Source: Bombiscardovia nodaiensis
GTDB lineage: Bacteria > Actinomycetota > Actinomycetes > Actinomycetales > Bifidobacteriaceae
Assembly: GCA_033127725.1 (NCBI GenBank)
Contig: AP026798.1
Location: 1,488,001 to 1,552,000, forward strand
Direction of reading: 5' to 3'
Length of the DNA: 64,000 nucleotides
The translations under genes and the position numbers were made by a program. The notes beneath the pieces are model-generated. The model ran no database searches, was not told the origin of the DNA, and worked only from the letters and a program-made list of their open reading frames with translations. Shown here one piece after another: positions 16,342 through 53,936 of the stretch. Within the stretch, counting starts at the first letter, position 1; the number at the start of each line of letters is the position of its first letter.

Positions 16342-19300
16342 TTACGCCGCGGGCAAGCAGGAGGCGCCAAACACGGCTTTAATCTCAGCCAGCATAGAGG
16401 TGTCGTGCCGCGTGCGGAAGCGGTCGCCGCAGGTGAAGAGCTTCACATTGCCCTTAGCATCGTAAACAGCCAACTGCACCTCGCTGTAGCCAGGGTGGTC
16501 GGTCAAGATGCGGGCCAGTTTCGCCAAGCGCCCGCGGTCCAGGGCGGTACGCTGGAGGGTGATGGTGAGCGGGCGCTCGTCCACCGACTCCAGGGTGGGC
16601 ACTTCCATGTCCTGCACCCGCATATCCACGCCCTCGTCGCGAATCTCCACCTGCCCGCGCACACGAATGACCGTGTCGATAGCCAGCTGCTCACTGGCCT
16701 TGTCGTAGGCTTTGCCGAAGAAGTTGCAGGTGATGGAGCTCTCCAAGTCCTCGAGCGTGATGCGCGCCCAAGGATTACCGCGCTTGGAGACTCGCCGGTC
16801 CACCGACGTGACCAGACCAGCCAGGGTAACGCTTTGGTTGTCGCCCAAGGATTGGGCTCGGTCAATGAGCTGGGCGATAGACATGTCTCGCAGTCCTGCC
16901 AGCACGGAAGCCATGCCGGACAGGGGGTGGTCGGAGACGTAGAGGCCCAGCATCTCGCGCTCGAAGTTGAGCTTGGTCTTTTTATCCCACTCTTCAATGT
17001 CGGGCACCGACACATCGGCGTCGCCCAAGATGTCAGACTCGGCCGTGTCCTCCTCGTCCGCAAAGAGGTCGAACTGCCCCTCGGCCTGCTTGCGCTTCAA
17101 CGGAACCACCTGGTCGATGGCCACCTCGTGAATCTGGAAGAGAGCCCGGCGGTTGCCGTCCGTCCCGTCAAAAGCGCCGGCCTTAATCAGGGACTCCACA
17201 GTGCGCTTGTTGAGCGCGTCCATGGACACACGCTTGACAAAGTCAAGGAAGTTGACGAACTTGCCCTGCTTGCTTTCGCGCTGTTTAATTATCTCGTCCA
17301 CAGCCTTGTCGCCCACATTGCGGATAGCCCCCAGACCAAAGCGAACCACGTCGCCGACTGCGGAGTACTCGGAGACTGACTCGTTGATGTCGGGCGGCAG
17401 CACCTGAATGCCCATGCGTCTGGCCTCACCCAGGTAGAGGGCGGTCTTGTCTTTGTTGGTACGCTCGCCCTGGAGGAGGGCGGCCATGAACTCCACCGGG
17501 TAGTGGGTCTTCAGGTAGGCGGTCCAATATGCGATCAGCGCGTAGGCAGCCGAGTGGGCCTTGTTAAAAGCGTAACCAGAGAAGGGCACCAAGATGTCCC
17601 AGACGGCCTGGGCCGCCTCCTTGGAGTACCCGTGTTCCTTCATACCTTCGAAGAAAGGCACCTGCTCCTTGGCCAGCACTTCCGGCTTCTTCTTGCCCAT
17701 GGCTCGGCGGAGCACGTCGGCTCGGCCCAGGGAGTAGCCCGCCAGAATTCGCGCGGCGGACTGCACCTGCTCCTGGTAGACAATCAGACCGTAGGTCTCG
17801 TCGAGCACGGCCTTCAGGGGCTCGGCCACCTCGGGGTGGATGGGCTCAATCTTTTGCAGACCGTTCTTGCGCTTGGCATAGTTGATATGGGAGTTCATAT
17901 CCATAGGGCCGGGCCGGTAGAGGGCGATCAGTGCCGATATATCGTTGAAATTATCGGGCTTTAGAAGGCGGAGCAGGGAGCGCATGCCGTCGCCATCGAG
18001 CTGGAAGACGCCCAGGGTGTCACCCCGGGCCAAGAGCTCGTAAGTCTCCTTGTCGTCCAGAGGAATCTTCTGGTAGGAGATGGGTTCCTTGCCGTTGCGG
18101 GCAATGTTGGTCAGGCAGTCGCGGATGACGCTCAAGTTGGAAAGCCCCAGGAAATCCATCTTGACCAGGCCCAGCGTCTCGCAGGTGTGGTACTCGAAGG
18201 TGGTGGTGACCGTGCCGTCGTTGCGCTCCATCAGCGGTGAGGTGTTCGTAATCGGCTCCGCGCCCATGATTGTCGCGCAAGCGTGCACGCCGGTCTGGCG
18301 GATGATGCCTTCCAAACCTTTGGCTTCGTCGGTAATGCGGTGCACGTCGGAGTCCGAGTCGTAGAGCTCGCGGAATTCGCGCGCCTCCGGGTAGCGCTTG
18401 GAATTAGGGTCGAAAATGTCTTTCAGACTCATGTCCTTGCCGTTGGCCGACGGGGGCAGCGCCTTAGTCACCTTGTCGCCCATGGAGTACTCGTAGCCCA
18501 TAATGCGGGCCGAATCCTTCAGGGCGTTCTTGGTCTTAATAGTGCCGTAGGTCACGCACTGGGCCACCTTGTCGGAGCCGTACTTGTCGGCCACATACTC
18601 CAGGACTTTCATGCGGCCCTCAGGGTCGAAGTCCACGTCGATATCGGGCAGGGAGACGCGCTCAGGGTTCAGGAATCGCTCGAAAATAAGGCCGTGCTTC
18701 AAGGGGTCCAGCTCGGTGATGCCCATCGCATAGGCCACCATGGAGCCTGCCGCAGAGCCACGCCCGGGCCCCACCATAATGCCATTCTCCTTGGCCCAGT
18801 TGATGTAGTCGGAGACCACCAGGAAGTAGCCGCAGAACTGCATCTGGCAGATCACGCCGCACTCGTAGTCGGCCTGGTGGGAAACTTCCTCGGGCACACC
18901 GTCCGGGTAACGCACTTTCAAGCCCTCATCGACTTTCTTGAGGAAGAGCGAGGTCTCGTCCCAGCCTTCCGGACAGTCGAAACGGGGCATAAACGCGCCG
19001 TCCTCGTGGTCGTCAAACATCACATTGCAGCGCTCGGCGATGGCGAGCGTGTTGTCGCAGGCCTCGGGGAACTCCTTAAAGAGGTCACGCATCTCCTGAG
19101 CCGAACGAATGTAGTAGCCAGTGCCGTCGAACTTGAAGCGTCCAGGCTCGTCCAGGTGGGATCCGGAGTTGATGCACAGGAGCGCGTCCTGGGCGCCTGC
19201 GTCCTCCTTGCGCACGTAGTGGGCGTCGTTCGTGGCCACCAGGGGTGCGCCGATGCGCTTAGCTATCTCCAGCAACTCCTTGGACACGCGGGTCTCAATC

Positions 19301-19905
19301 TCCAGGCCGTGGTCCATCAGCTCCACGAAGTAGTTGTCTTTGCCGAAGATGTCTTGGAACTCGCCAGCCGCGCGCAGGGCCTCGTCAAACTGGCCCAGGC
19401 GCAGGCGGGTCTGCACAATGCCCGAGGGGCAGCCAGTCGTAGCAATCACGCCCTTGGAGTAGGTGGAGAGCACTTCCTTGTCCATACGCGGCCACTTACC
19501 GACCAAACCCTCCAGATTCGCCACAGACGAAGCCTTAATCAGGTTCACCAGGCCCGTGTCGTTCTCGGCCCAGAGGGTCATGTGGGTGATGAAACCGCCA
19601 CCGGAGACGTCGTCCGAGCGCTGTGTATCGTCACCCCAGTGCACGCGGGTCTTGTCCTGGCGGGCCGTCTCAGGCGTGACATACGCCTCAATGCCAATGA
19701 TGGGCTTAATGTCGTTGTCCACCGCGTTACGCCAGAGCTCGTAGGCCCCGTGCATGTTCCCGTGATCGGTGATGGCGATAGACTTTTGCCCCATCTCTTT
19801 CACCTGCTGCACCAGCTCAGGAATCTTGGAAGCGCCGTCGAGCGTGGAGTAGTGCGTGTGGTTGTGCAAGTGCACAAAACTATCAGGAGCAACAGTAGAA
19901 GCCAT
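16342..19905 (-). CDS. dnaE: DNA polymerase III alpha subunit
   Basis: The 1,187-residue replicative polymerase. An N-terminal PHP domain (FVHLHNHTHYSTLDGASKIP) is followed by the C-family polymerase core with catalytic aspartates in LPDIDVDFDPEGR and the VGPGRGSAAGSMVAYAM motif, a helix-hairpin-helix region, and an OB-fold (VTLAGLVTSVDRRVSKRG). It is DnaE1-type by length. In bifidobacterial relatives rluD is commonly next to dnaE; here the two are separated by the 20-27.7 kb surface-protein insertion. Confidence 0.98.
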   Translation of the reverse strand: MASTVAPDSFVHLHNHTHYSTLDGASKIPELVQQVKEMGQKSIAITDHGNMHGAYELWRNAVDNDIKPIIGIEAYVTPETARQDKTRVHWGDDTQRSDDVSGGGFITHMTLWAENDTGLVNLIKASSVANLEGLVGKWPRMDKEVLSTYSKGVIATTGCPSGIVQTRLRLGQFDEALRAAGEFQDIFGKDNYFVELMDHGLEIETRVSKELLEIAKRIGAPLVATNDAHYVRKEDAGAQDALLCINSGSHLDEPGRFKFDGTGYYIRSAQEMRDLFKEFPEACDNTLAIAERCNVMFDDHEDGAFMPRFDCPEGWDETSLFLKKVDEGLKVRYPDGVPEEVSHQADYECGVICQMQFCGYFLVVSDYINWAKENGIMVGPGRGSAAGSMVAYAMGITELDPLKHGLIFERFLNPERVSLPDIDVDFDPEGRMKVLEYVADKYGSDKVAQCVTYGTIKTKNALKDSARIMGYEYSMGDKVTKALPPSANGKDMSLKDIFDPNSKRYPEAREFRELYDSDSDVHRITDEAKGLEGIIRQTGVHACATIMGAEPITNTSPLMERNDGTVTTTFEYHTCETLGLVKMDFLGLSNLSVIRDCLTNIARNGKEPISYQKIPLDDKETYELLARGDTLGVFQLDGDGMRSLLRLLKPDNFNDISALIALYRPGPMDMNSHINYAKRKNGLQKIEPIHPEVAEPLKAVLDETYGLIVYQEQVQSAARILAGYSLGRADVLRRAMGKKKPEVLAKEQVPFFEGMKEHGYSKEAAQAVWDILVPFSGYAFNKAHSAAYALIAYWTAYLKTHYPVEFMAALLQGERTNKDKTALYLGEARRMGIQVLPPDINESVSEYSAVGDVVRFGLGAIRNVGDKAVDEIIKQRESKQGKFVNFLDFVKRVSMDALNKRTVESLIKAGAFDGTDGNRRALFQIHEVAIDQVVPLKRKQAEGQFDLFADEEDTAESDILGDADVSVPDIEEWDKKTKLNFEREMLGLYVSDHPLSGMASVLAGLRDMSIAQLIDRAQSLGDNQSVTLAGLVTSVDRRVSKRGNPWARITLEDLESSITCNFFGKAYDKASEQLAIDTVIRVRGQVEIRDEGVDMRVQDMEVPTLESVDERPLTITLQRTALDRGRLAKLARILTDHPGYSEVQLAVYDAKGNVKLFTCGDRFRTRHDTSMLAEIKAVFGASCLPAA

Positions 19906-20110: not shown

Positions 20111-20199
20111 GCTACACTTGCTATTTGTATGAGACAGAGCGCGTAGTAGCTGATAGTTGGGGAATCGTATCGGCCATGTACGCATTGAAGAATTTGTAT

Positions 20200-20232
20200 G
20201 CCGAAAATAGGCGTAAGACCGCTTTTTTCGGC
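20200..20232 (+). promoter_or_regulatory. Conserved 5'-leader hairpin, copy 1
   Basis: GCCGAAAA at 20200-20207 pairs with TTTTCGGC at 20225-20232, with an inner helix AGGCG/CGCTT around TAAGAC. It sits 16 bases before the start codon. The copy at 24923-24956 keeps the stem with a compensatory C-G to T-A change. No U-run follows, so a translational or stability role is more likely than termination. Confidence 0.6.
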
Positions 20233-20248
20233 TTAGAGGGGTGTTATC

Positions 20249-23200
20249 ATGCGCGTCAAGCACACGTTTAGTGCGGCACTCGTAGCATTATCTATGGCTA
20301 TCCTGGGGGGGGGGATACGCTAGCCTAGCGGCCCCCATCAGCGCATATGCTGATCCCGCAACCGGTGACTACCAGTTCACACTTACACATCCCAGCGGCG
20401 CCACCAAAGGCGGTGAAACCGTCACCATCAACGCCCGTTTAGCTGGTGGATTCACCACAGTAAGCGCCGGCGACACCTTCTCCCTCGCCACCGGACACGA
20501 CGGCAACGTCTGGGCCTGGGGCGACAACAGCTCGGGCCAGCTCGGCGACGGCACCACCACCAGCAGCACCACACCCGTCAAGGTCCACACGCCGGCAGGT
20601 GTGCGCTTCGCCACCGTCAAGGCCGGCGGCAAGCACGCCCTCGCCCTCGGATCGGACGGCAAGCTCTACGCCTGGGGAGACAACAGCTCCGGCCAGCTCG
20701 GCAACGGCACCACCACCAACAGCACCACCCCAATAGTGGTCACCCAGCCGGCCGACTCCCAACGCTTCACCCGCATAGCCGCAGGAGCCAACTTCTCCAC
20801 CGCCATCGCACCAGCACTCGGCGACGCCTACCCCAGCGGTACGGGTTATGATTTTAGAATGTTCGCCTGGGGCGCCGGCGTGGGAGCCGGAAAAACCACG
20901 CCGACTAACGTCAAGTTACAATTATCGGGCACGGGAAAGGATTGGTCACAGGCGCAGGATGTGAGCGCTCAAGGCGGCGGCTCACTCACCCTCATGAAAC
21001 GATACCCCTTCTACGACGGTCTTACCTCTTTCTCGCTGATTGCTGGTTATCCGTTTAATGTAGGAGGAGTTAACCGTCCTCCAGGATCACCTGATGACCC
21101 GGAGGGCATTTATGGTTTGGATTTGTTTGCTGGTGGCTCGCATTTCCTTTCCGCCTCTGCTGCTCGCAGCACGGCTACTGCGGTTGCTCTTTATGGGTAT
21201 GGCTCTAACGCGTATGGGCAGCTCGGCGACGGCACCACCACCGACCACCCTTCATACCCTGGAGTTCAGGTGCATGACCCCTCGCCCACGGTGGGGTTCA
21301 CCGGTATGGTCAGCGCCGGGGGCAGGCATAACCTGGCCGTCGGCACCGACGAGAAGACCTACGCCTGGGGGGCCAACACCTCCGGCCAGCTCGGCGACGA
21401 GACCACCAGCAACCGCCTCGAACCGGTAGAGGTCCACGCCCCCGCGGGCGTCACCTTCCGGGCCATCGACGCCGGCGACAGCCACAACCTCGCCATCGGC
21501 TCGGACGGCAACGCCTACGCCTGGGGCGACAACCAACACGGGCAACTGGGCGACGGCACCACCACCAACCGCGGCAAACCCACCCGCGTGCAGACCATCC
21601 TCAACATCACCGCCATCACCTTCGACACCACACCAGGAACCACACCCGCATACGACCCCGCCACCGGCGACTGGACCACCACCACACCGGCCCACCCCGC
21701 GGGCAAGGTCAACGCCACCATCGACTGGACCATCAACGGCACACCCCAAACCAGCCGCACCCTGGCCAACGGGTACGAATACCTGCCCTACAAGACCATC
21801 ACCTTCACCGACACCGGCGGCCAACCCCTCAACCCCGCCATACCCGACCAGACCGTCACCCAAGGCAGGACCACCACACAGCCCACCAACCCCACGCGCA
21901 AGAACTGCGCGTTCAGCGGCTGGTACCGCAACAACCAACCCTTCTTCTTCCACCAGACCATCACAACCGACACCACCCTAGAAGCCCGATGGTCCTGCTT
22001 CACCATGACCCCCCAACAAGGAGCCAAGGAAGGCGGCACCACCGTCACCATCACACCCCCAACACCACCCACCGGCACCAGATTCACCCACGTCCAAGCA
22101 GGCATCGGCACGAGCGCCGCCCTGGGCAGCGACGGCAACGCCTACATGTGGGGCAGCGACGACGGCGGCCAACTTGGCGACAACGCCGCCGCCGGTGGCT
22201 ACTCTGCCCAGCCGGTGCAGGTGCAGGCCCCTCAGGGAGTCCACTTCACCAGCGTCAAACCCGGAAGCGATCATACTCTGGGCCTGGCGGAGGACGGCAC
22301 ACTCTGGGCATGGGGACGAAGCGTACAAGGCGAGCTGGGAAACGGATTCATAAGAGGAACTGGCAACCCGGAATGGTCTCAATCTAATGTGCCGAAGCGG
22401 GTGAAGACACCACCCAACGTGCGCTTCACCGCGATCAGCGCAGGCGCCCACACCTCGTTTGCCATCGGAGACGACGGCAACACCTACGCATGGGGGAACG
22501 GATTCTACTACAGCAGCGTAAGCAGTAACAAACTAAGCAATGTATTGCCTGTACCGGTCAGTCTTCCACCAAACGTCACCTTCACCGACATCGCATCCAC
22601 TATTGCAACCACAGTGGCGCTCGGCAGTGACGGCAAGGTGTACACCTGGGGCACCGGCCAGGCGGGAGCAAACGGCAACGGAAAAACACCACCTACCGAG
22701 ATCACGCACACTTCAACCAATTTCGTCCCCCAGGCAATCAGCACTCCGGCAGGCGTCACCTTCACACAGATATCAACAAACGCGGCAGCGAACTCTTCCG
22801 TGCTGGCGTTGGACAGCAACGGCAACGCCTGGGGATGGGGAAGGAACGAAAGTGGCATGACAGGCATAGGCAACGCCACAATGTGGATAACGACTCCCAC
22901 TAGGGTTTCGGCGCCGGCAGGGCTCACCTTCACCAGCGTCAGCGCAGGTAGTCGACATGGCATGTTCACCGGCTCCGACGGCAACACCTACGCCAGCGGA
23001 TGGGGAAGCATAACAGGCACCGGAACCAACGGTTTTGTAAACGTGCTCACACCCACGCGGGTCAACACGCCAACGGGCGTCACCCTCACCCAAATCAGCG
23101 CGGGAAACGATTACACGCTCGCCATCGGCTCCGACGGCAAAACCTACGCATGGGGAGCGGGAACAAACGGCATCCTCGGCACCGGAGGCACCGACCAAAA

Positions 23201-23579
23201 ACCCTCCCCCGCGGAAGTGCTGCCACCGAAGGTGGGAGCCTCCAGCGTCCGCTTCGATCAGAGCGCCGGCCTCAACCTCACACCAACGGCCGACGGCAAA
23301 TACACCGTCGTCACCCCGGCCCACCCCATCGGCACCGTCGACACCACCATCACATGGACCCTGGGTAACAACCCCCAGGACAACGCCACCCTCCCCTTCG
23401 AATACGTAGGATTCATCCTGCCCTCCGCCGGCAGCATCCCCCTACACCAATACACCGGCGGCAGCCTTCTTCTCCTAACCACTCTTGCAACAATCACCTA
23501 CACCGGCTACCAGTTCACCACCCGCAAACACACCAACCCACACGAACCCCGCATCATCACCAGCACCCACGGCCAGTAA
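20249..23579 (+). CDS. Giant RCC1-repeat surface protein, out of frame at a G10 tract (phase-OFF)
   Basis: ATG 20249, with AGAGGGG upstream, encodes the signal peptide MRVKHTFSAALVALSMAILG but runs into TAG at 20321 after ten Gs (20305-20314). With nine Gs one frame runs to 23579, about 1,109 residues. Content in order: a short TIG-like start, six RCC1-type repeats (pattern AGxxHxxAIGSDGxxYAWG), an InlB-type repeat near 21780-21980 (TITFTDTGGQ to LEARW), a TIG-like stretch (GGTTVTITPP), about seven more RCC1 repeats, then LPSAGSIPLHQ, a hydrophobic helix and a basic tail, a sorting-signal layout with LPSAG in place of LPXTG. Probably a wall-attached adhesin or sensor; function inferred from architecture. 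Confidence 0.8.
20305..20314 (+). repeat. G10 homopolymer tract in signal-peptide codons (out-of-frame length)
   Basis: Ten consecutive Gs follow CTATCCT. Nine or twelve keep the signal peptide in frame with the RCC1 ectodomain; ten do not. The paralogous leader at 25029-25038 also has ten and is in frame because its flanking sequence differs by one base. Confidence 0.85.
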
Positions 23580-23681: not shown

Positions 23682-24158
23682 ATGACTATTGCAAGGCAAG
23701 CTGACCTCTCGTCTCAGGAAGGGCAGCAGTACGGTTCGCCGCCCTTCCTGTAAGGCCAAGATGGTGAGCGCATTCTCCTATCAGCCAAGCTCTACCAACT
23801 GATTCGAGACTTCGTGCTCTCCTCGCTGGCCTCGCCGAGCTCAGTTACGGATTCGCATTTGCATCCCGAGCAGGCCGCACTAGCTCAGCAAGCCCAGCGC
23901 CTCACAACAGGCCAAGCCGCCCACATTCTCGGCGTATCGCAGCGCACCCTTACCCGCATGCTGGACCGAGGCCTTATCCCCTACTCGCGCCCGCAGACGC
24001 AAGGCTATCGTTTTCTCTACTTGGAAGATGTACTCGCCTATAAGCGTCAGCGAGACCAGGAAACCCGTCGCAACCTAGAAGGCATGCGAGAAAGCGCCGC
24101 TCAAGCCGGTTCCTACGACGTGGACTACTCCCAGTATCTCTCCCAGTTCAAGGACTAG
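23682..24158 (+). pseudogene. Helix-turn-helix (excisionase-type) antitoxin of a PIN toxin pair, interrupted near its N-terminus
   Basis: ATG 23682 with GAAGGA upstream opens MTIARQADLSSQEGQ and meets TAA at 23751-23753; the same frame continues GQDGERILLSAKLYQLIRDF, the usual N-terminal part of this antitoxin family, and then the DNA-binding domain LTTGQAAHILGVSQRTLTRM with LYLEDVLAYKRQRD. A shortened product could start at GTG 23814 (114 residues) and would still contain the helix-turn-helix. The PIN gene begins 2 bp downstream. The stop within the N-terminal part marks the gene as probably decayed. Confidence 0.7.
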
Positions 24159-24160
24159 TC

Positions 24161-24729
24161 ATGCCAGAAGCCGCCTTCCTCGATGCCAACCTCTTCGTTC
24201 CTACTTGGACGCTCGATGCATTCCTCAGCCTAGCGAAAGCGCGATTGTACGAGCCGTTTTGGTAAGACAAGGTCATGGAGGAGGCGAGCGCTGCAATTCA
24301 AGAGGTCCGGCAGGTAAGCAGCCGGCAGGCCCAACAAGTGCTAAGCGCAGCCAATAAGGCCTTTCCCCCCTGGCACTCACCCAGGGTTGGGAAACACTTG
24401 AGCAAGACATAGATTTGCCAGATATAGATGACCGTCACGTCCTCGCAGCAGCGCGCTGGGCGGGAGCTCAAACTATCGTCACCTTCAACCTAAAACACTT
24501 CCCACAATCTGCACTCGCTCCTGTTGGCTTAGAAGCCCAATCCCCCGACACCTTCCTGAGTCGCATGTACGACAAGGAGCCAGACTTGTGCGCGCAAGCT
24601 ATGAGAGATTTGGTGGGCAGTAAACACCACCCTCCCCGCACTATGCAAGAGGAAATCGCACACCTCCAACGCATAGGTCTCCCCTTATTCGCTAGCCGTT
24701 TAACCGAATCCGAACAGCTGGAGCTATAA
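24161..24729 (+). pseudogene. PIN-domain (VapC-type) RNase toxin, decayed
   Basis: ATG 24161 begins MPEAAFLDANLFVPTWTLDA, the first acidic PIN motif, and stops at TAA 24263 right after YEPFW. The frame then reads DKVMEEASAAIQEVRQ, and needs one more C in the run at 24365-24370 to reach LALTQGWETLEQDIDLPDID, DDRHVLAAARWAGAQTIVTF and NLKHFP, the remaining PIN core with its later aspartates. One nonsense and one frameshift thus inactivate the nuclease. It is paired with the upstream antitoxin remnant. Confidence 0.75.
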
Positions 24730-24922
24730 GACCCTTCATACTCCTTATAAGCTCAACTAACACCAGAGGAATTAGAAAACCTCCTCACCGGCAGAGAATC
24801 AGACATCGTCTAGGAAGCAATACGATCGCAGGTGATACACTAGAGGCTTGTATACGACAGAGCGCCTTGTAGCTTTTGGTTGGGGAACCATATAAGACTT
24901 GTGCGCGGCAGAATATTTGAAG

Positions 24923-24956
24923 GCTGAGAATAGGGCGTAAGACCGCTGTTTTCAGC
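24923..24956 (+). promoter_or_regulatory. Conserved 5'-leader hairpin, copy 2
   Basis: GCTGAGAA at 24923-24930 pairs with TTTTCAGC at 24949-24956. Against copy 1 the third base pair changed from C-G to T-A on both arms, and an A-T became a G-T wobble, so the helix is preserved while the sequence drifts. It lies 16 bases before the start codon. Confidence 0.6.
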
Positions 24957-24972
24957 ATAGAGGGGTGTTATT

Positions 24973-27672
24973 ATGCGCGTCAAGCACACGTTGAGTGCTG
25001 CACTCGTAGCATTATCCATGACTGTCCTGGGGGGGGGGTCCGCTAATTTAGCGGCACCGGTCGCTGTTCACGCTGACCCGGCCCAACCCCAATCTTCACT
25101 TTCGGATGCAGATTCGCGCAATGCAGCGCAATCACAGAAAATTCAAGACTCATCGCAACTCGATACTGTAACAAAGTCGGCAGATTCTCCCGCACCGGAA
25201 GTGCCGACGCCCCAAAATCAATCAGAATCGCCCACTCCCCTAGGCACTTCCCAGCCCAAGCAATCAGCGCCAACCCCTGAGCCCAATCCCAAACCCGCTC
25301 AGCCTAAGCCGCAGCCTTCCCCGACCCCAACTGCTACCCCATCGCCACAGCCCAGCTCCAGTTCAACCCCAAGCCTAAGTCCGACCCCATCGCAACCCAA
25401 TACAATCACCCCGCGCGGAGGCCCATACTCCTGCACCCCGGACGTCAGCACCATAGCCGACTGCTTCCCCGACCCCAACCTAGCCGTCGCCATCGCCAAT
25501 CGCATGCCCCGCACACCCCCCAGCTACCCAGCCAGGCAAGTAACCGATAAGCTCACCACAGCCGATATCACTGCAACAACATATCTGCAATTTGCTGGCT
25601 CAACATCAGGAGAAGGTTTAATTGTTGCCAATATCAGAAACCTTCAAGGTATGGCCGTATTCAGCAATCTACAAGAGCTTCATTTTACAGGCGGTAAGAT
25701 TACCGACATCAGTGCATTAACAAACATGCCAAGCCTCACCACCATTGAAATGCCCGGCAATGAAATTAGCGTCCTTGGTCAGCTGAATAATCCAAATCTA
25801 CAATCACTTACTCTCGGTAGAGCTTACTCTTTGCCCGATAACGACGACGCCGACGGATTACCGATTCATAAATCGTCCACTAACAAAGTAAATGATGCAA
25901 GCTTAAAAACAGTTAATTGGAACAATCTCACTAAGCTAGAGAATTTGTATCTAATGGGAAACCCGATAACAGATCTTAGCCCAATTACTAATCTGCCAAG
26001 TCTCAAACAACTCTATGCGCCAGATTGCAAAATAACAACTTTGGGATTACTTAACTGCCCGAATCTCACGTTTTTATACCTTCAATGTAATCAAATATCT
26101 GAACTCTCAAGTGTGAATTGGAACAGCTTAACCAATTTGAAGACACTATACCTGCAAAGAAATAAAATTACAGATATCAGTTTACTCACGGGCATGCCTT
26201 CTTTGCAAACTCTCAAAGTCTGGTTTAACAAAGTTGAGACTATAGGAACATTAAACAATCCTCAATTAGAATTGCTCTACTTACAGAGTAATAAAATCAC
26301 GAATACTGCTATCAGCACGGTTAATTGGAGTAGTCTCACTATGCTCCAGTACCTACGTCTAGATAATAATTTACTCACAAACGGCAGCATTTTAACAAAT
26401 ATGCCTGCCCTACGTCTCCTTTACCTGATGGGCAATAAAATTACAACTATCGGCCCCCTAGATAATCCAAATCTAGAGTTTCTATATCTGGGAACCAGCT
26501 GGGGAGGCGGCACGGGTTATCCTGACGATGAAGATTTTATCACCGGCGGAGGAGGAAACCCTCTTACTAGTTCAGCTATGTCAGATGTACGATGGAGCAA
26601 ACTTACGAAACTTCAGAGTCTCCAAATAGACAGCAACTCTATTACAGATCTTAGTTTTTTACCGAGGATTCCGAGTTTGGCATACTTGTCGGCCACTAGC
26701 AACAGTTTAGCTTCGCTAGGCGATTTAGATTTGCCGAACCTCTCTTCCCTATATCTAGACAGATGTAAACTAACGAGCAGTATTATTTCAGCTACAGACT
26801 GGGGCAAACTCACCAAGCTGACAACGTTATCACTCAATAGCAATGAGATTACCGAACTCACTATGATTAATACTGCTTGGGCTCCGTTCATAGCGGGACT
26901 AAGCCAGTTCTATCTTCAGAATAACCGGATAACAGATGTAAGCACCGTAGATTGGAGCAAGTTCACCGCTTTAACAAATCCGAACTACATACTAGACAAT
27001 CAACAAGTGCGCTTGCCAGACATACCTACCTACTCAGACAATCCCCTTAACCTCGGCCCCGCAATCATTAGCCACAGTCCGGATGTATTCGCCGTCCCAG
27101 ATAAATATAATTGGAATAACACTGACGTATCGACTCCTGCTGGTGGTTCCTACAACACAGCTAATGGAGTTTACACCTGGCCGCACTCATATCCAGGCGA
27201 TTATACATACGGTTTTACAGGCACCATCCAGCTTCCTAATGCCTCCGGACCAACAAAGTTCAACGGTAGAATCTCCCAGAAAGTTTTAGGCGTCACAGTC
27301 ACCTTTAATCCTAATGGCGGAACCCTCCACACGCCTGCGGTACAGGCTCTGGCGAACGTCGGCGACAGAGCTACTGCTCCGAATCCTAGACCCACCAAAG
27401 AGGGCGAGATCCTGGCTGGTTGGTACACCCAAGCCACAGGCGGCAGCCTCTGGGACTTCAGCAATCCCGTCAACTCCAACATGACCCTCTACGCCCACTG
27501 GGCCCCCGCCATGACTCTCCCCACCGCCGGAGCCATACCGCTCCAGCAGATCAGTGGAGGTGGTCTCTTGGTTCTGTCTGCCTTGTCAGCGCTTGCCTAT
27601 GCGGCATATGAGCTCAAGGGGCATCGCCAGCACAAGGCCCGTCACGCTCCGCGTACTGTCAGCTCGCGGTAG
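24973..27672 (+). CDS. LRR (internalin-like) surface protein with InlB repeat and LPTAG signal (phase-ON)
   Basis: An 899-residue exported protein. In order: signal peptide MRVKHTLSAALVALSMTVLG with Gly-Gly-Gly from the G10 tract and cleavage near VHADP; a Pro/Ser/Thr/Gln linker (about 85-150); a cap with two cysteines (YSCTPDVSTIADCF); more than a dozen 20-24-residue leucine-rich repeats (LxxLYLxxNxITDIS); an InlB-type repeat (VTFNPNGGTLHTPAVQALAN to LYAHW); then LPTAGAIPLQQ, a hydrophobic helix and a basic tail. The LRR region is AT-richer than its neighbours. Likely wall-attached and ligand binding; the ligand is unknown. With ten Gs the gene is in frame. Confidence 0.88.
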   Translation: MRVKHTLSAALVALSMTVLGGGSANLAAPVAVHADPAQPQSSLSDADSRNAAQSQKIQDSSQLDTVTKSADSPAPEVPTPQNQSESPTPLGTSQPKQSAPTPEPNPKPAQPKPQPSPTPTATPSPQPSSSSTPSLSPTPSQPNTITPRGGPYSCTPDVSTIADCFPDPNLAVAIANRMPRTPPSYPARQVTDKLTTADITATTYLQFAGSTSGEGLIVANIRNLQGMAVFSNLQELHFTGGKITDISALTNMPSLTTIEMPGNEISVLGQLNNPNLQSLTLGRAYSLPDNDDADGLPIHKSSTNKVNDASLKTVNWNNLTKLENLYLMGNPITDLSPITNLPSLKQLYAPDCKITTLGLLNCPNLTFLYLQCNQISELSSVNWNSLTNLKTLYLQRNKITDISLLTGMPSLQTLKVWFNKVETIGTLNNPQLELLYLQSNKITNTAISTVNWSSLTMLQYLRLDNNLLTNGSILTNMPALRLLYLMGNKITTIGPLDNPNLEFLYLGTSWGGGTGYPDDEDFITGGGGNPLTSSAMSDVRWSKLTKLQSLQIDSNSITDLSFLPRIPSLAYLSATSNSLASLGDLDLPNLSSLYLDRCKLTSSIISATDWGKLTKLTTLSLNSNEITELTMINTAWAPFIAGLSQFYLQNNRITDVSTVDWSKFTALTNPNYILDNQQVRLPDIPTYSDNPLNLGPAIISHSPDVFAVPDKYNWNNTDVSTPAGGSYNTANGVYTWPHSYPGDYTYGFTGTIQLPNASGPTKFNGRISQKVLGVTVTFNPNGGTLHTPAVQALANVGDRATAPNPRPTKEGEILAGWYTQATGGSLWDFSNPVNSNMTLYAHWAPAMTLPTAGAIPLQQISGGGLLVLSALSALAYAAYELKGHRQHKARHAPRTVSSR
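25029..25038 (+). repeat. G10 homopolymer tract in signal-peptide codons (in-frame length)
   Basis: Ten consecutive Gs follow CTGTCCT and encode the LGGG of the signal peptide. Gain or loss of one or two Gs would truncate the LRR protein near residue 25. Confidence 0.85.
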
Positions 27673-49677: not shown

Positions 49678-51744
49678 CTATTTGCGCTGCTTCAGGCGCC
49701 AAGCTAGCCCTGCAGCCGCCAAACCGCCGGCCAAGCACAACAGCAAAAGACCAGCGAGCTGGTTCATAGGCTGTCCACCGGCTTTCGGCAGCGCTCGCTT
49801 CCAAACTGCGTAGAGGGTAAGGTCTGAATCCGGCATGGTATCGGCGTTTAAACGCCACAAAATAGTGCCGCTTTGGCTGGTAGACCAACCCAGGAGGTCA
49901 TCTCGCCCCGTGCTTGGAGGCGAGAGCAGACTGCCATACGCCGCCTGAGCTGTGCTGGTCACGGGAGTGCCATCTACGCGCTGATAGATGTAGGTCACTG
50001 TGTGCTGGTGCGCTGTCCACGTCTCTTTCAAGGTGACATCGCGCGTCACCGGCGTTGTAGCCAAATTCCAGGCAGAACCATCGCTCGCATCCACCCAGGA
50101 GAGGGTGTAGCCGGTCCTGGATGGCAGCGGGGAAACCGCGCCCACAGGGTCATTTTCGTTCACCTGCCGCGTGGGCACAATTGAGGGTGTGGTTCCGTCC
50201 GCCTGCACGAATTTGACAGTGTAGGTCATCATATAGGTAAACGACAAGTCAGTGGGCTGCGGCTGCGGTGTGCCGCCAACCGTCCACGAGACCGCCACGG
50301 GCACAGTTCCCTTCGCGTGCGGCGGGGTAGTCACCACCCACGTGCCCGCAGCTACTCCAGGTGCGAGTCCAGTACCTGCCACACCACCAAAGGACACGCC
50401 TGTAATGGCGGTATAGGGCAGCCCAACGTTCTGTGGGGTCGAATAATAACTAGCGGTGCCGCCGCTGCCTAGCTGGCCGTTATTGTTGCGCCCCCAGGCC
50501 CAAGTCGTGCCGTCCTGGGCCATAGCGATGGTTTGATAAGCAGACTCCGCTATCAACCTCACAAACGTCACGCCAACGGGAATGTTAGTCATTTTCCGCG
50601 CGTACCGGCTAGTGCCAATGTCCGCCAGCTCGCCGTATTGGCTCGTCCCCCAGCCCCACACTTCGCCGGAAGCCGTCATCCCGGTCGAGTACCCCCAACC
50701 GCCCGTGATCGACGTTAACCTGGCAGGCACGCTAATTTGCACAGGTTCCGCCTTAGGTGTAGCGGTGCCGTCGCCCAACTGGTAACCGTCGTTGCGGCCC
50801 CAAGTCCACACTGTGTCGTCGGTGGCAACAGCTAGAGAGTGATAAGCACCCGCCCCAATGGCCCTGAAGCTCAGGCTCGTATTCACCGCCACCGGCGTGT
50901 CAATACCCATTGCAGAAGAAGCACTTCCTATCTGCCCGTAATGGTTGGCACCCCATGAGTATAAACGCCCATTAGACCCCAAAACCAGCGTGTGCGCCCA
51001 ACCTGTGGCGACACTGACCACTGACGACACCTGGGGTATGCGCACAGCTCTGGGATAGTAGGTCGTATCGCCGCTGGACCCGTCGCCCTGCTGACCGGCT
51101 CGGTCGTCTCCCCAAGCGTACAAGTGCCCGGTAGCATCCAGGCACATGGTGTGATACCAGCCCGTGGAAATGTGCACGATTTTCGCAGCAGTGGCAGGGA
51201 AAACAACTTTCTTCGGAGTCAAACTGTGCTCGGTGCTAGACCCCTGACCCAGCTCTCCATTCGTGCCCCTGCCCCAGGTGTAGACGCTCCCGTCGCTAGA
51301 GAGAGCAACCGAAGTCCAATAGCCCGCTCCCACTTCAATAATGCCCGCGTTATTCAGCTCTGCAATTTTGACTGCCCTATTGTGGAAGCCCCCGGCAATG
51401 CCCACTCCGACATCTTGCGAGCCGTTACCCAGCTCGCCGTCTGAGTTGTCGCCCCAGGAGTACACGTTGCCGTCACTGCCCACAGCGACTGTGTGACGGG
51501 GACCGGTGCTAGCGGTCACATATTTCAGGCCCTGTGCGGCGGGCGGCGTAATCGTGACCCGAGTGCCGCCAGTTGTGGGCCCAGAAGTTGGGGTCATCGT
51601 AAAACCAGAAGGAAGGGCGTGAGCGAGCGGAACGGGCGTAAGGCAGGCAGCCACGCACAGGACAAGGCCCGTTGCCACAGCCGTAAGCCTTCCTAACCTG
51701 GCTTTCAGGCAGGATAATAGTCGTGCAACCTTCATCGCTGTCAT
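49678..51744 (-). CDS. RCC1-repeat surface protein with InlB repeats and LPKAG signal
   Basis: A 688-residue exported protein: signal peptide RLTAVATGLVLCVAACLTPV ending LAHA, a TIG-like stretch (TPTSGPTTGGTRVTITPP), seven RCC1-type repeats (GAGYWTSVALSSDGSVYTWG, TGWAHTLVLGSNGRLYSWG and others), the number needed for one seven-bladed propeller, then two InlB-type repeats (VKFVQADGTTPSIVPTRQVN and VTYIYQRVDGTPVTSTAQAA), and LPKAGGQPMNQ, a hydrophobic helix and a basic tail. No homopolymer tract. Related in layout to the 20249-23579 protein. Confidence 0.88.
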   Translation of the reverse strand: MTAMKVARLLSCLKARLGRLTAVATGLVLCVAACLTPVPLAHALPSGFTMTPTSGPTTGGTRVTITPPAAQGLKYVTASTGPRHTVAVGSDGNVYSWGDNSDGELGNGSQDVGVGIAGGFHNRAVKIAELNNAGIIEVGAGYWTSVALSSDGSVYTWGRGTNGELGQGSSTEHSLTPKKVVFPATAAKIVHISTGWYHTMCLDATGHLYAWGDDRAGQQGDGSSGDTTYYPRAVRIPQVSSVVSVATGWAHTLVLGSNGRLYSWGANHYGQIGSASSAMGIDTPVAVNTSLSFRAIGAGAYHSLAVATDDTVWTWGRNDGYQLGDGTATPKAEPVQISVPARLTSITGGWGYSTGMTASGEVWGWGTSQYGELADIGTSRYARKMTNIPVGVTFVRLIAESAYQTIAMAQDGTTWAWGRNNNGQLGSGGTASYYSTPQNVGLPYTAITGVSFGGVAGTGLAPGVAAGTWVVTTPPHAKGTVPVAVSWTVGGTPQPQPTDLSFTYMMTYTVKFVQADGTTPSIVPTRQVNENDPVGAVSPLPSRTGYTLSWVDASDGSAWNLATTPVTRDVTLKETWTAHQHTVTYIYQRVDGTPVTSTAQAAYGSLLSPPSTGRDDLLGWSTSQSGTILWRLNADTMPDSDLTLYAVWKRALPKAGGQPMNQLAGLLLLCLAGGLAAAGLAWRLKQRK

Positions 51745-52424: not shown

Positions 52425-53936
52425 TCATGCCTGCAAGCGCCTGCTGAAAGCAAGAGCACCCGCCCCAACAATCATCAGTGTCAGAGCCAACCCAGCCGGA
52501 GCCCAAACCTCAGCCCCCGTCTGTGCCAGCTGCCCAGGATCCCCAGACTTCGCCGCGGCAGCGGACTTCTGCTTTGAGGCAGTCTTGTTACCCGCCTGAC
52601 CGGACTGAGTTGCCGGATCCGTTGCCCCCGTGTTGCCCCCGTTATTTCCATTGCTTCCAGTAGTTGAAGCTCCAGAGGTAGTGGCCGGTGATTGACCTGC
52701 ACCAGCTGGGTTAGCCTGCTGCCCGTTGCTAGCAGCAGTGCAATTACCTTCGACTAAGGGACTCAAGGCATCTGGTCCATAGATCAATTTGACCTTGTCT
52801 TCACAAATAAAATGCCCTAACGTTTCCACACCGTCGACCTTATCCATGATAATTTGGAAGAGTTGGTTCGCCGGAATGTTCGTGAGCAGGCCAGCAATCG
52901 GCGTAACGCTTGCAAGCTTATTGTGGTCGAGCCACAGCTGACCTTTGAGCTTGGTCAAGCCCTGAATCGCAGTGAGATCACTCACCTGGTTGCCGTGTAT
53001 ATCTAATGACTCAAGCTGAGTTAAACCGCTGAGCACACTGATATCGCTAATCTGATTGTCTTCGAGAATCAACGACTTCAAACCTGTGGCATCTTTCAGC
53101 GGAGAAATATCGCTGATAGAGCCGTGATCAGAGCGGAAACTCACTAGCTGCGTCTTGTTGCGCAAAGCACTGATATCACTGATCGAGTTGTATTGCTTGC
53201 TGTTGCTGTTACCCATATAGCCTTCTAGGGTCAGATTGGTTAAGTTATTCATATCTGACAGCGCATCGATATTGCTAATTCGATTACTTGAAATATTTAA
53301 CTCGGTCATCCCCGTGAGGCCACGCAAGGCCGAAATATCGCTGATATTGTTATCAGAGATATCGAGCTTCGTTAGATTCGTAAGATGGGATAGGAAGCTC
53401 ACATCGCTAATTTGATCGCTGCTTAGTGTCAACTGGTTCAGATTAGTCAACGCTCCCAAGGGGCTAGTATCACCCAACTGGGTGAGATTGATCCGCAGAT
53501 CTTTCAAGCTCTGCAACCCTTGTAGAGGCGTCAAGTTAGCTGTCTTTAGGCCGTAGAGGCTCAGACGCTGTAAATGAGTGAAAACTTCTAAACCACTAAG
53601 GTCCGCTATACCCTCACCCAAAGGCGTATCATTATTTATACTTGTCGCGCCGTTTGGCAACTGGTTCGTAATGATATGGCTCCCCAAATCAGTTTCTTGT
53701 GCAAACTTCGATGTAAACACATCTGTGGGGGAAGCCTTGAAATGCTTCTCTAGGCTACTGCTCAATACAGAATCAGGGAAGCAATCTGCAAACCTGCTCT
53801 GGTCGGGAACGCAGGAACTTACTTGGTCAGCTGTCGCTGGGGGGGGGGTCACGGAAAATGCGAAACTGGCAGCGATAGTTGCCAGCGCAGCCGCGCCCGC
53901 CACTACCAATTTCACGGGATGATTACGAACTTGCAC
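52425..53936 (-). CDS. LRR (internalin-like) surface protein with LAQTG signal and a C10 tract
   Basis: A 503-residue exported protein. GTG 53936, with AAGGAG upstream, begins VQVRNHPVKLVVAGAAALAT (signal peptide) followed by PPP encoded by ten Cs (53839-53848), then a two-cysteine cap (SSCVPDQSRFADCF), about twelve 22-residue internalin-type repeats (LNISSNRISNIDALSDMNNL), a C-terminal cap with cysteines, a Gly/Asn/Ser/Thr linker and LAQTGAEVWAPAGL, a hydrophobic helix and a short basic tail. LAXTG is the class E sortase type. An upstream extension to 54119 lacks a ribosome-binding site. Confidence 0.85.
   Translation of the reverse strand: MQVRNHPVKLVVAGAAALATIAASFAFSVTPPPATADQVSSCVPDQSRFADCFPDSVLSSSLEKHFKASPTDVFTSKFAQETDLGSHIITNQLPNGATSINNDTPLGEGIADLSGLEVFTHLQRLSLYGLKTANLTPLQGLQSLKDLRINLTQLGDTSPLGALTNLNQLTLSSDQISDVSFLSHLTNLTKLDISDNNISDISALRGLTGMTELNISSNRISNIDALSDMNNLTNLTLEGYMGNSNSKQYNSISDISALRNKTQLVSFRSDHGSISDISPLKDATGLKSLILEDNQISDISVLSGLTQLESLDIHGNQVSDLTAIQGLTKLKGQLWLDHNKLASVTPIAGLLTNIPANQLFQIIMDKVDGVETLGHFICEDKVKLIYGPDALSPLVEGNCTAASNGQQANPAGAGQSPATTSGASTTGSNGNNGGNTGATDPATQSGQAGNKTASKQKSAAAAKSGDPGQLAQTGAEVWAPAGLALTLMIVGAGALAFSRRLQA
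53839..53848 (-). repeat. C10 homopolymer tract at the signal-peptide end of the second LRR gene
   Basis: Ten Gs on the plus strand, ten Cs in the coding sense, encoding ValThrProProProAla at the end of the hydrophobic segment. This length is in frame; one base more or less would truncate the protein. Length and position match the G10 tracts at 20305 and 25029. Confidence 0.85.

Follow-up and report, generated by a model that had tools for sequence, protein, structure and literature searches.

Does a surface-protein gene that is split by a run of ten guanines reflect a sequencing error, a decaying copy or a switch in its off position? This question is raised by a locus in a 64,000-nucleotide stretch of the genome of Bombiscardovia nodaiensis (contig AP026798.1, positions 1,488,001 to 1,552,000), here called the window, whose numbering is used for the locus. 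Its features are as follows:

20125..20332, plus strand: 5' module of upstream region, leader and G run, common with the downstream LRR gene (blastn)
20249..20323, plus strand: leader frame as assembled, a signal-peptide-like start of 24 codons and then TAG (translation), with a ribosome-site-like GAGG upstream
20305..20314, plus strand: G10 tract, next base A (sequence count)
20316..23579, plus strand: RCC1 body, open, 1,087 codons plus stop, out of frame relative to the leader (ORF reading, Pfam)
23418..23432, plus strand: LPSAG as the putative sortase site, ahead of a hydrophobic stretch and a basic tail (translated C-terminal tail)

A split RCC1 gene and its neighbours

The tract holds exactly ten Gs and lies 56 bases after the ATG at 20249, which has a ribosome-site-like sequence. 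Translation from this ATG ends after 24 codons at the TAG in 20321-20323, and the frame of the body, open from 20316, has its stop codon at 23577-23579. In random sequence of matched composition, a frame this long would be free of stops with a probability of about 3e-12; 23 and 20 stops are found in the other two frames across the body, and the third-position GC of the body, 0.746, is coding-like. Pfam profiles run on the body alone gave RCC1 (9.4e-106) and Flg_new (3.6e-09) and no pilin domain, and the next ORF encodes an HTH protein. At the C-terminal end, the hydrophobic stretch and basic tail follow an LPxTG-type variant, LPSAG, which we take to be the sortase recognition site of the body; anchoring is predicted from this arrangement. 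An intact signal-peptide start is thus cut off by frame from an intact, putatively sortase-anchored RCC1 body. The initial annotation had claimed the same, and its arithmetic, that nine or twelve Gs would join the two parts, agrees with the computed phase. As assembled the gene reads as off; its state in living cells we infer from that. Directly upstream and divergent lies a gene for DNA polymerase III alpha (16342-19905, minus strand), probably by coincidence.

Three G10 runs are present in the window, compared to a mean of 0.29 after shuffling (at least three were reached in 2 of 100 shuffles); the excess of G8 runs is not significant (nine observed, a number reached by 12 of 100 shuffles). 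All three G10 runs (20305-20314, 25029-25038 and 53839-53848) are at the starts of surface genes, the second and third of them, which the initial annotation had not linked to the target, in the following setting:

24973..27672, plus strand: neighbouring LRR surface gene with the same kind of leader, in frame as assembled (ORF reading)
25029..25038, plus strand: G10 tract of the neighbouring LRR gene, in the signal-peptide region (run count)
52425..53936, minus strand: gene of an LRR surface protein, in frame in the assembly; its coding-sense run is C10, and the GTG at 53936 is taken as its start
53839..53848, minus strand: C10 run, read as G10 on the plus strand, close to where the signal peptide of this LRR gene ends

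The 5' module of the target matches 24848-25055 with 81.5% identity over 211 columns (blastn), despite the different bodies, RCC1 and LRR, that follow. The piece made of upstream region, leader and tract has thus been shared among different bodies. Between the two genes are a small HTH_17/MerR-type protein (23814-24158) and apparently broken small ORFs (24160-24730, one piece with an internal stop), which by resemblance we presume to be perhaps the remnants of a toxin-antitoxin pair. Another RCC1 surface gene of the window (49678-51744, minus strand) is on the leading strand and has no long G run.

A genome-wide set of tracts at surface-gene starts

A pattern search of the own genome (G000) for runs of at least nine Gs or Cs returned 51, and the flanks of all 51 were read. 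Of these, 32 are at the starts of large surface genes, 28 in the G sense and four in the C sense. The target, presented in the initial annotation as a single case, is one of these 28, and a single-locus reading was dropped once the 32 surface-gene tracts had been counted. The bodies of the G-sense genes have 586 to 1,148 codons; by Pfam, 22 of the 28 are RCC1 and five are LRR (LRR_4) proteins. Two C-sense genes of the own genome are near-identical; the one that was scanned has, like a counterpart in a second genome of the genus (G007), SdrD_B and SpaA domains. Out-of-frame C-sense cases are:

Own genome, 1728654 (L085) and 1932317 (L091): two large anchored genes, out of frame, with a run of 10-11 Cs close to the start; L085 is SdrD_B/SpaA, pilin-like
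G007, 384168 (L146) and 729204 (L148): two large anchored genes, out of frame, with a run of 10-11 Cs close to the start; L146 is SdrD_B/SpaA, pilin-like

Runs of at least nine number 8 to 103 per genome in 18 other genomes of the genus and 0 to 9 in ten genomes from other families within the order. RCC1 is present in 22 of 27 same-genus genomes examined, and clear matches to the leader type were found in 4 of the 27 searched (G000, G007, G029 and G006). In two more, G034 and G001, the leader of the RCC1 genes is of another type, and the run is 111-168 bases from the start. Long runs also occur in other settings. In a gene for an ABC transporter ATPase, a C9 run lies 26 bases past the putative start (own genome 683724, L072), possibly another length-sensitive start. 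In G003, G005, G011, G013, G014, G034 and G035 a conserved T run is directly followed by a G run of 10-14; this stretch is not a surface-gene leader and is possibly a switch or an element.

Frame states were counted for those G-sense genes whose body reaches 300 codons and whose leader begins at an ATG with a ribosome-site-like sequence; genes with shorter bodies or without such a leader (for example 562273, 696470, 800597 and 470350 of G007) and the stretches from G006 were left out. Of the 80 runs of G007, 52 were read in addition to two more regions, which gave 35 G-sense and four C-sense genes. For G034, 14 of 26 runs were examined and 11 counted, and for G001 11 of 36 were examined and seven counted, in both cases picked at evident clusters and not at random. 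The leader is in frame with the body in 21 of 28 G-sense genes of the own genome (seven are out), 9/35 in G007, 6/11 in G034, 3/7 in G001 and 1/2 in G029, altogether 40 of 83 in five genomes. One own-genome gene (1598802) was counted as in frame with a start 167 nt upstream of its tract. Only one of the eight C-sense genes, four each in G000 and G007, is in frame.

The length class that joins leader to body is largely shared within a genome: it is the same in 22/28 genes of the own genome, 30/35 of G007, 11/11 of G034 and 7/7 of G001. Compared to one third by chance, this gives p values of 5e-4 to 2e-10, with paralogues treated as independent and shared ancestry ignored. Single consensus calls of tract length range from 10 to 11 in the own genome and in G007, from 11 to 14 in G034 and from 12 to 17 in G001. 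Among gene pairs with flanks at least 85% identical, tract length differs in 47 of 66 (17/30 within a genome, 30/36 between genomes). One pair of G001 has 17 and 15 Gs between flanks identical in 120 of 120 bases, and several counterparts in the own genome and G007, with flanks 95-98% identical, differ by one G, with one in frame and the other out. This variation between close copies with kept flanks was found for copies of the family, not for the target itself. In addition, two genes with a family-type leader have an interrupted run, and both are in frame.

Off copies of the RCC1/LRR surface genes stay open and constrained. Of the 43 out-of-frame G-sense bodies, 38 are open as far as the anchor motif, and dN/dS is 0.17-0.47 in 19 close pairs; the five pairs in which both members are out of frame (0.17, 0.24, 0.25, 0.25 and 0.43) are no looser than the others. 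For the body of the target the best match in the genomes compared reaches 37% identity, which is not close, so constraint is claimed for the family and not for the target body.

The initial annotation had described the target as apparently switched off by one base in its tract. That it is off as assembled holds, but the length of the tract does not set it apart, because ten is also found in 27 of the 28 G-sense genes of the own genome, the in-frame neighbour included. The phase is what differs: the length class that would join leader and body in the target is not the one of 22 of these 28 genes, and the base after the run, A in the target, is A in 4/7 out-of-frame and in 0/21 in-frame own-genome genes (p 0.002). 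From the sequence, it looks as if the target has been set out of frame, relative to its family, by a change of one base where the run ends on its 3' side. The minority phase class, the A and the missing relative on which constraint could be tested are also what is expected of a decaying copy that is permanently off through this change. We consider such decay unlikely, because 1,087 codons free of stops, an intact anchor motif and coding-like third positions argue against it and the pure G10 run is still present. Nevertheless, the A next to the run and the minority phase class make it uncertain how often the target turns on, and it may switch less freely.

Probable slipped-strand phase variation and the uniformity of the tracts

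The most likely mechanism for the RCC1/LRR tracts would be slipped-strand phase variation, and we regard the target as probably (about 0.78) belonging to a set of homopolymer contingency genes that extends across the genome and by which the RCC1/LRR repertoire is varied in this way. In the plan of these genes, a signal-peptide-like leader is followed by about 10-17 Gs, or Cs in a few, and a large, usually sortase-anchored body, mostly an RCC1 beta-propeller and in some cases LRR. Replication slippage in the run would add or remove one base. With a fitting length class leader and body would be joined, and the protein could be exported and anchored; with a non-fitting one translation would end soon past the run, in the target with a peptide of 24 residues as the off product. 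The benefit may be a changing coat of RCC1 and LRR proteins that diversifies surface binding in the host gut. The initial annotation had proposed an on/off design of the slippage type in the signal peptide; the wider tract family strongly backs this design, and it is from the family that we infer the switching itself, its rate and its reversibility.

The repair genes point in the same direction. In a profile search none of four genomes matched MutS_V (11 of 14 control genomes did), and all four matched NucS_C (7 of 14 controls did). According to PMC8228993, in the part of the paper used here, indels are not corrected by NucS, but most of them may be removed by the PHP proofreading of actinobacterial DnaE. 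Slipped-strand phase variation is thus favoured by the 32 of 51 runs at surface-gene starts, the shared phase, the in-frame state of the genes with interrupted runs and the missing MutS_V match; DnaE PHP proofreading, the other length class of the target and the uniform length of the own-genome tracts argue against it.

This uniformity is striking. Of the 32 surface tracts of the own genome, 31 have a length of exactly ten, regardless of frame; among the 19 other runs seven have this length and the remainder 9 or 11-13 (Fisher p 3e-6). In G007, 31 of the 39 counted surface tracts, and 27 of the 35 in G-sense genes, have eleven. Free slippage does not predict the near-uniform ten of the own genome, which could be partly technical.

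Could the homopolymers then simply be miscalled in sequencing or assembly, with the target really in frame? Called lengths do cluster by genome, with ten in 27/28 G-sense genes of the own genome and eleven in 27/35 of G007, and G-tract lengths in databases can differ from the true mixture (PMC9187656, the part of the paper considered). But the same assembly has its other runs called at 9 to 13, with the lengths as called 21 of the 28 genes are in frame, and miscalling leaves the placement of the runs at surface-gene starts unexplained. Hence, we find this explanation distinctly unlikely.

Long G runs are also plausible sites for slippage of RNA polymerase or ribosomes. Slippage of this kind on ten Gs would yield some full-length protein from out-of-frame genes with no switch at the DNA level, and the nearly constant tract length of the own genome, out-of-frame genes included, is consistent with it. 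However, if the frame were irrelevant the phase class should drift. Instead, each of the four genomes has a class common to most of its genes, and both genes with an interrupted run are in frame. Moreover, in Bifidobacterium breve it was the length of the DNA tract that governed pilus display (PMC9187656, in the part used). Slippage at the level of expression is therefore very improbable in our view.

A different idea takes the uniformity at face value: each genome could have one length set-point, held by the replication and repair machinery, so that a small shift would flip most RCC1, LRR and pilin genes together, with the position of the G run on the lagging side as part of the mechanism. 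The figures behind it are ten in 31/32 tracts of the own genome and eleven in 31/39 of G007, with 21/28 versus 9/35 genes in frame. We mention it as a highly speculative possibility.

The strand pattern on which it draws is the following. For strand calls the origin was taken at zero; GC skew of the own genome is mostly positive below approximately 1.1 Mb and negative above, though not perfectly clean, with the opposite sign in two stretches (L070, L079) and in the first 3 kb (L098). All counted G-sense surface genes, 28/28 in the own genome and 35/35 in G007, are on the lagging strand, compared to 41% and 47%, respectively, of the other ORFs of at least 250 residues in the stretches examined. 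The C-sense genes (four in each of the two genomes) are on the leading strand, which places the G run on the lagging side in all surface cases (32 and 39). Other runs of the own genome are without bias (G run on the lagging side in 8 of 19). G029 was set aside, since one gene is leading by coordinate versus a local skew of +0.074. Five of seven own-genome RCC1 genes read that have no long run are also lagging and two are leading. With the origin at zero in the genomes of B. breve and B. dentium, which we assume, their pilus tracts are on the leading side. These tracts are on the plus strand at low and on the minus strand at high coordinates (PMC9187656, Table 1, the part of the paper considered). 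Taken together, the orientation of the tract-free RCC1 genes and of the pilus tracts suggests that the lagging bias may be inherited gene orientation, and a general strand rule for G runs is not claimed.

Comparison with known switches and RCC1 families

If about thirty surface genes per genome are randomly on or off, a clonal culture would contain cells with different surfaces. Tract lengths would then have to be genotyped in work on knock-outs, adhesion and colonisation, and copies annotated as frameshifted should not be thrown out as pseudogenes.

The literature cited in this section was drawn on in part. The closest known system is found in the sortase pili of B. breve UCC2003, for which replication slippage at a G-tract was measured and tract length governs pilus display (Penno et al. 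2022, PMC9187656). There, too, an intragenic G-tract is located between an ORF with the signal peptide and an LPxTG-type ORF, with lengths of 8-13 (Table 1 of that paper). However, the B. breve tract is in the first gene of a pilus operon, with one or two per genome, and the survey, in the part of the paper used, was confined to pilus clusters, whereas the genes described here, 28 in the G sense and four in the C sense, are mostly RCC1 and LRR genes. The target would work like the B. breve switch but does not belong to that system, given that it has no pilin domain and an HTH ORF next to it.

Within the same bacterial family, Gardnerella has many homopolymer tracts with LPXTG surface genes, one of which was shown to be variable (Garcia et al. 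2024, PMC11287997). Its G/C tracts are approximately 70% upstream of ORFs, whereas here they fall within the signal-peptide region, in a single family of paralogues, and RCC1 does not occur in the text of that paper. The initial annotation had called homopolymer phase variation hardly described for RCC1-type surface proteins in Bifidobacteriaceae. As these two studies show (PMC9187656, PMC11287997), such variation as a whole is already published for this family; a link to RCC1 proteins was not found among the matches of the literature search.

In bee bifidobacteria, surface proteins with RCC1 repeats form a much-expanded family, to which PMC3447821, in the part considered, assigns no distinct function. 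Like the target, they have RCC1 domains, the Listeria-Bacteroides (Flg_new) repeat and a cell-wall anchor, and the paralogues are many, with 19 copies in one report and 7-24 per genome (PMC3447821, PMC4449606). The term 'phase variation' is absent from both texts, 'homopolymer' from that of PMC4449606, and 'poly-G' and 'frameshift' from that of PMC3447821. In a search of the open-access literature, none of the matches listed linked RCC1 or bifidobacterial surface proteins to phase variation.

In size, the set is similar to the 29 poly-G/poly-C loci of at least seven repeats in Campylobacter jejuni (PMC4965091), and it is found in genomes without a MutS match. C. jejuni is an unrelated bacterium with unrelated genes, and there switching was measured (PMC4965091). 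RCC1 surface families and homopolymer phase variation are thus each known; within the literature searched, it is their link that would be new, and it would cover a whole protein family.
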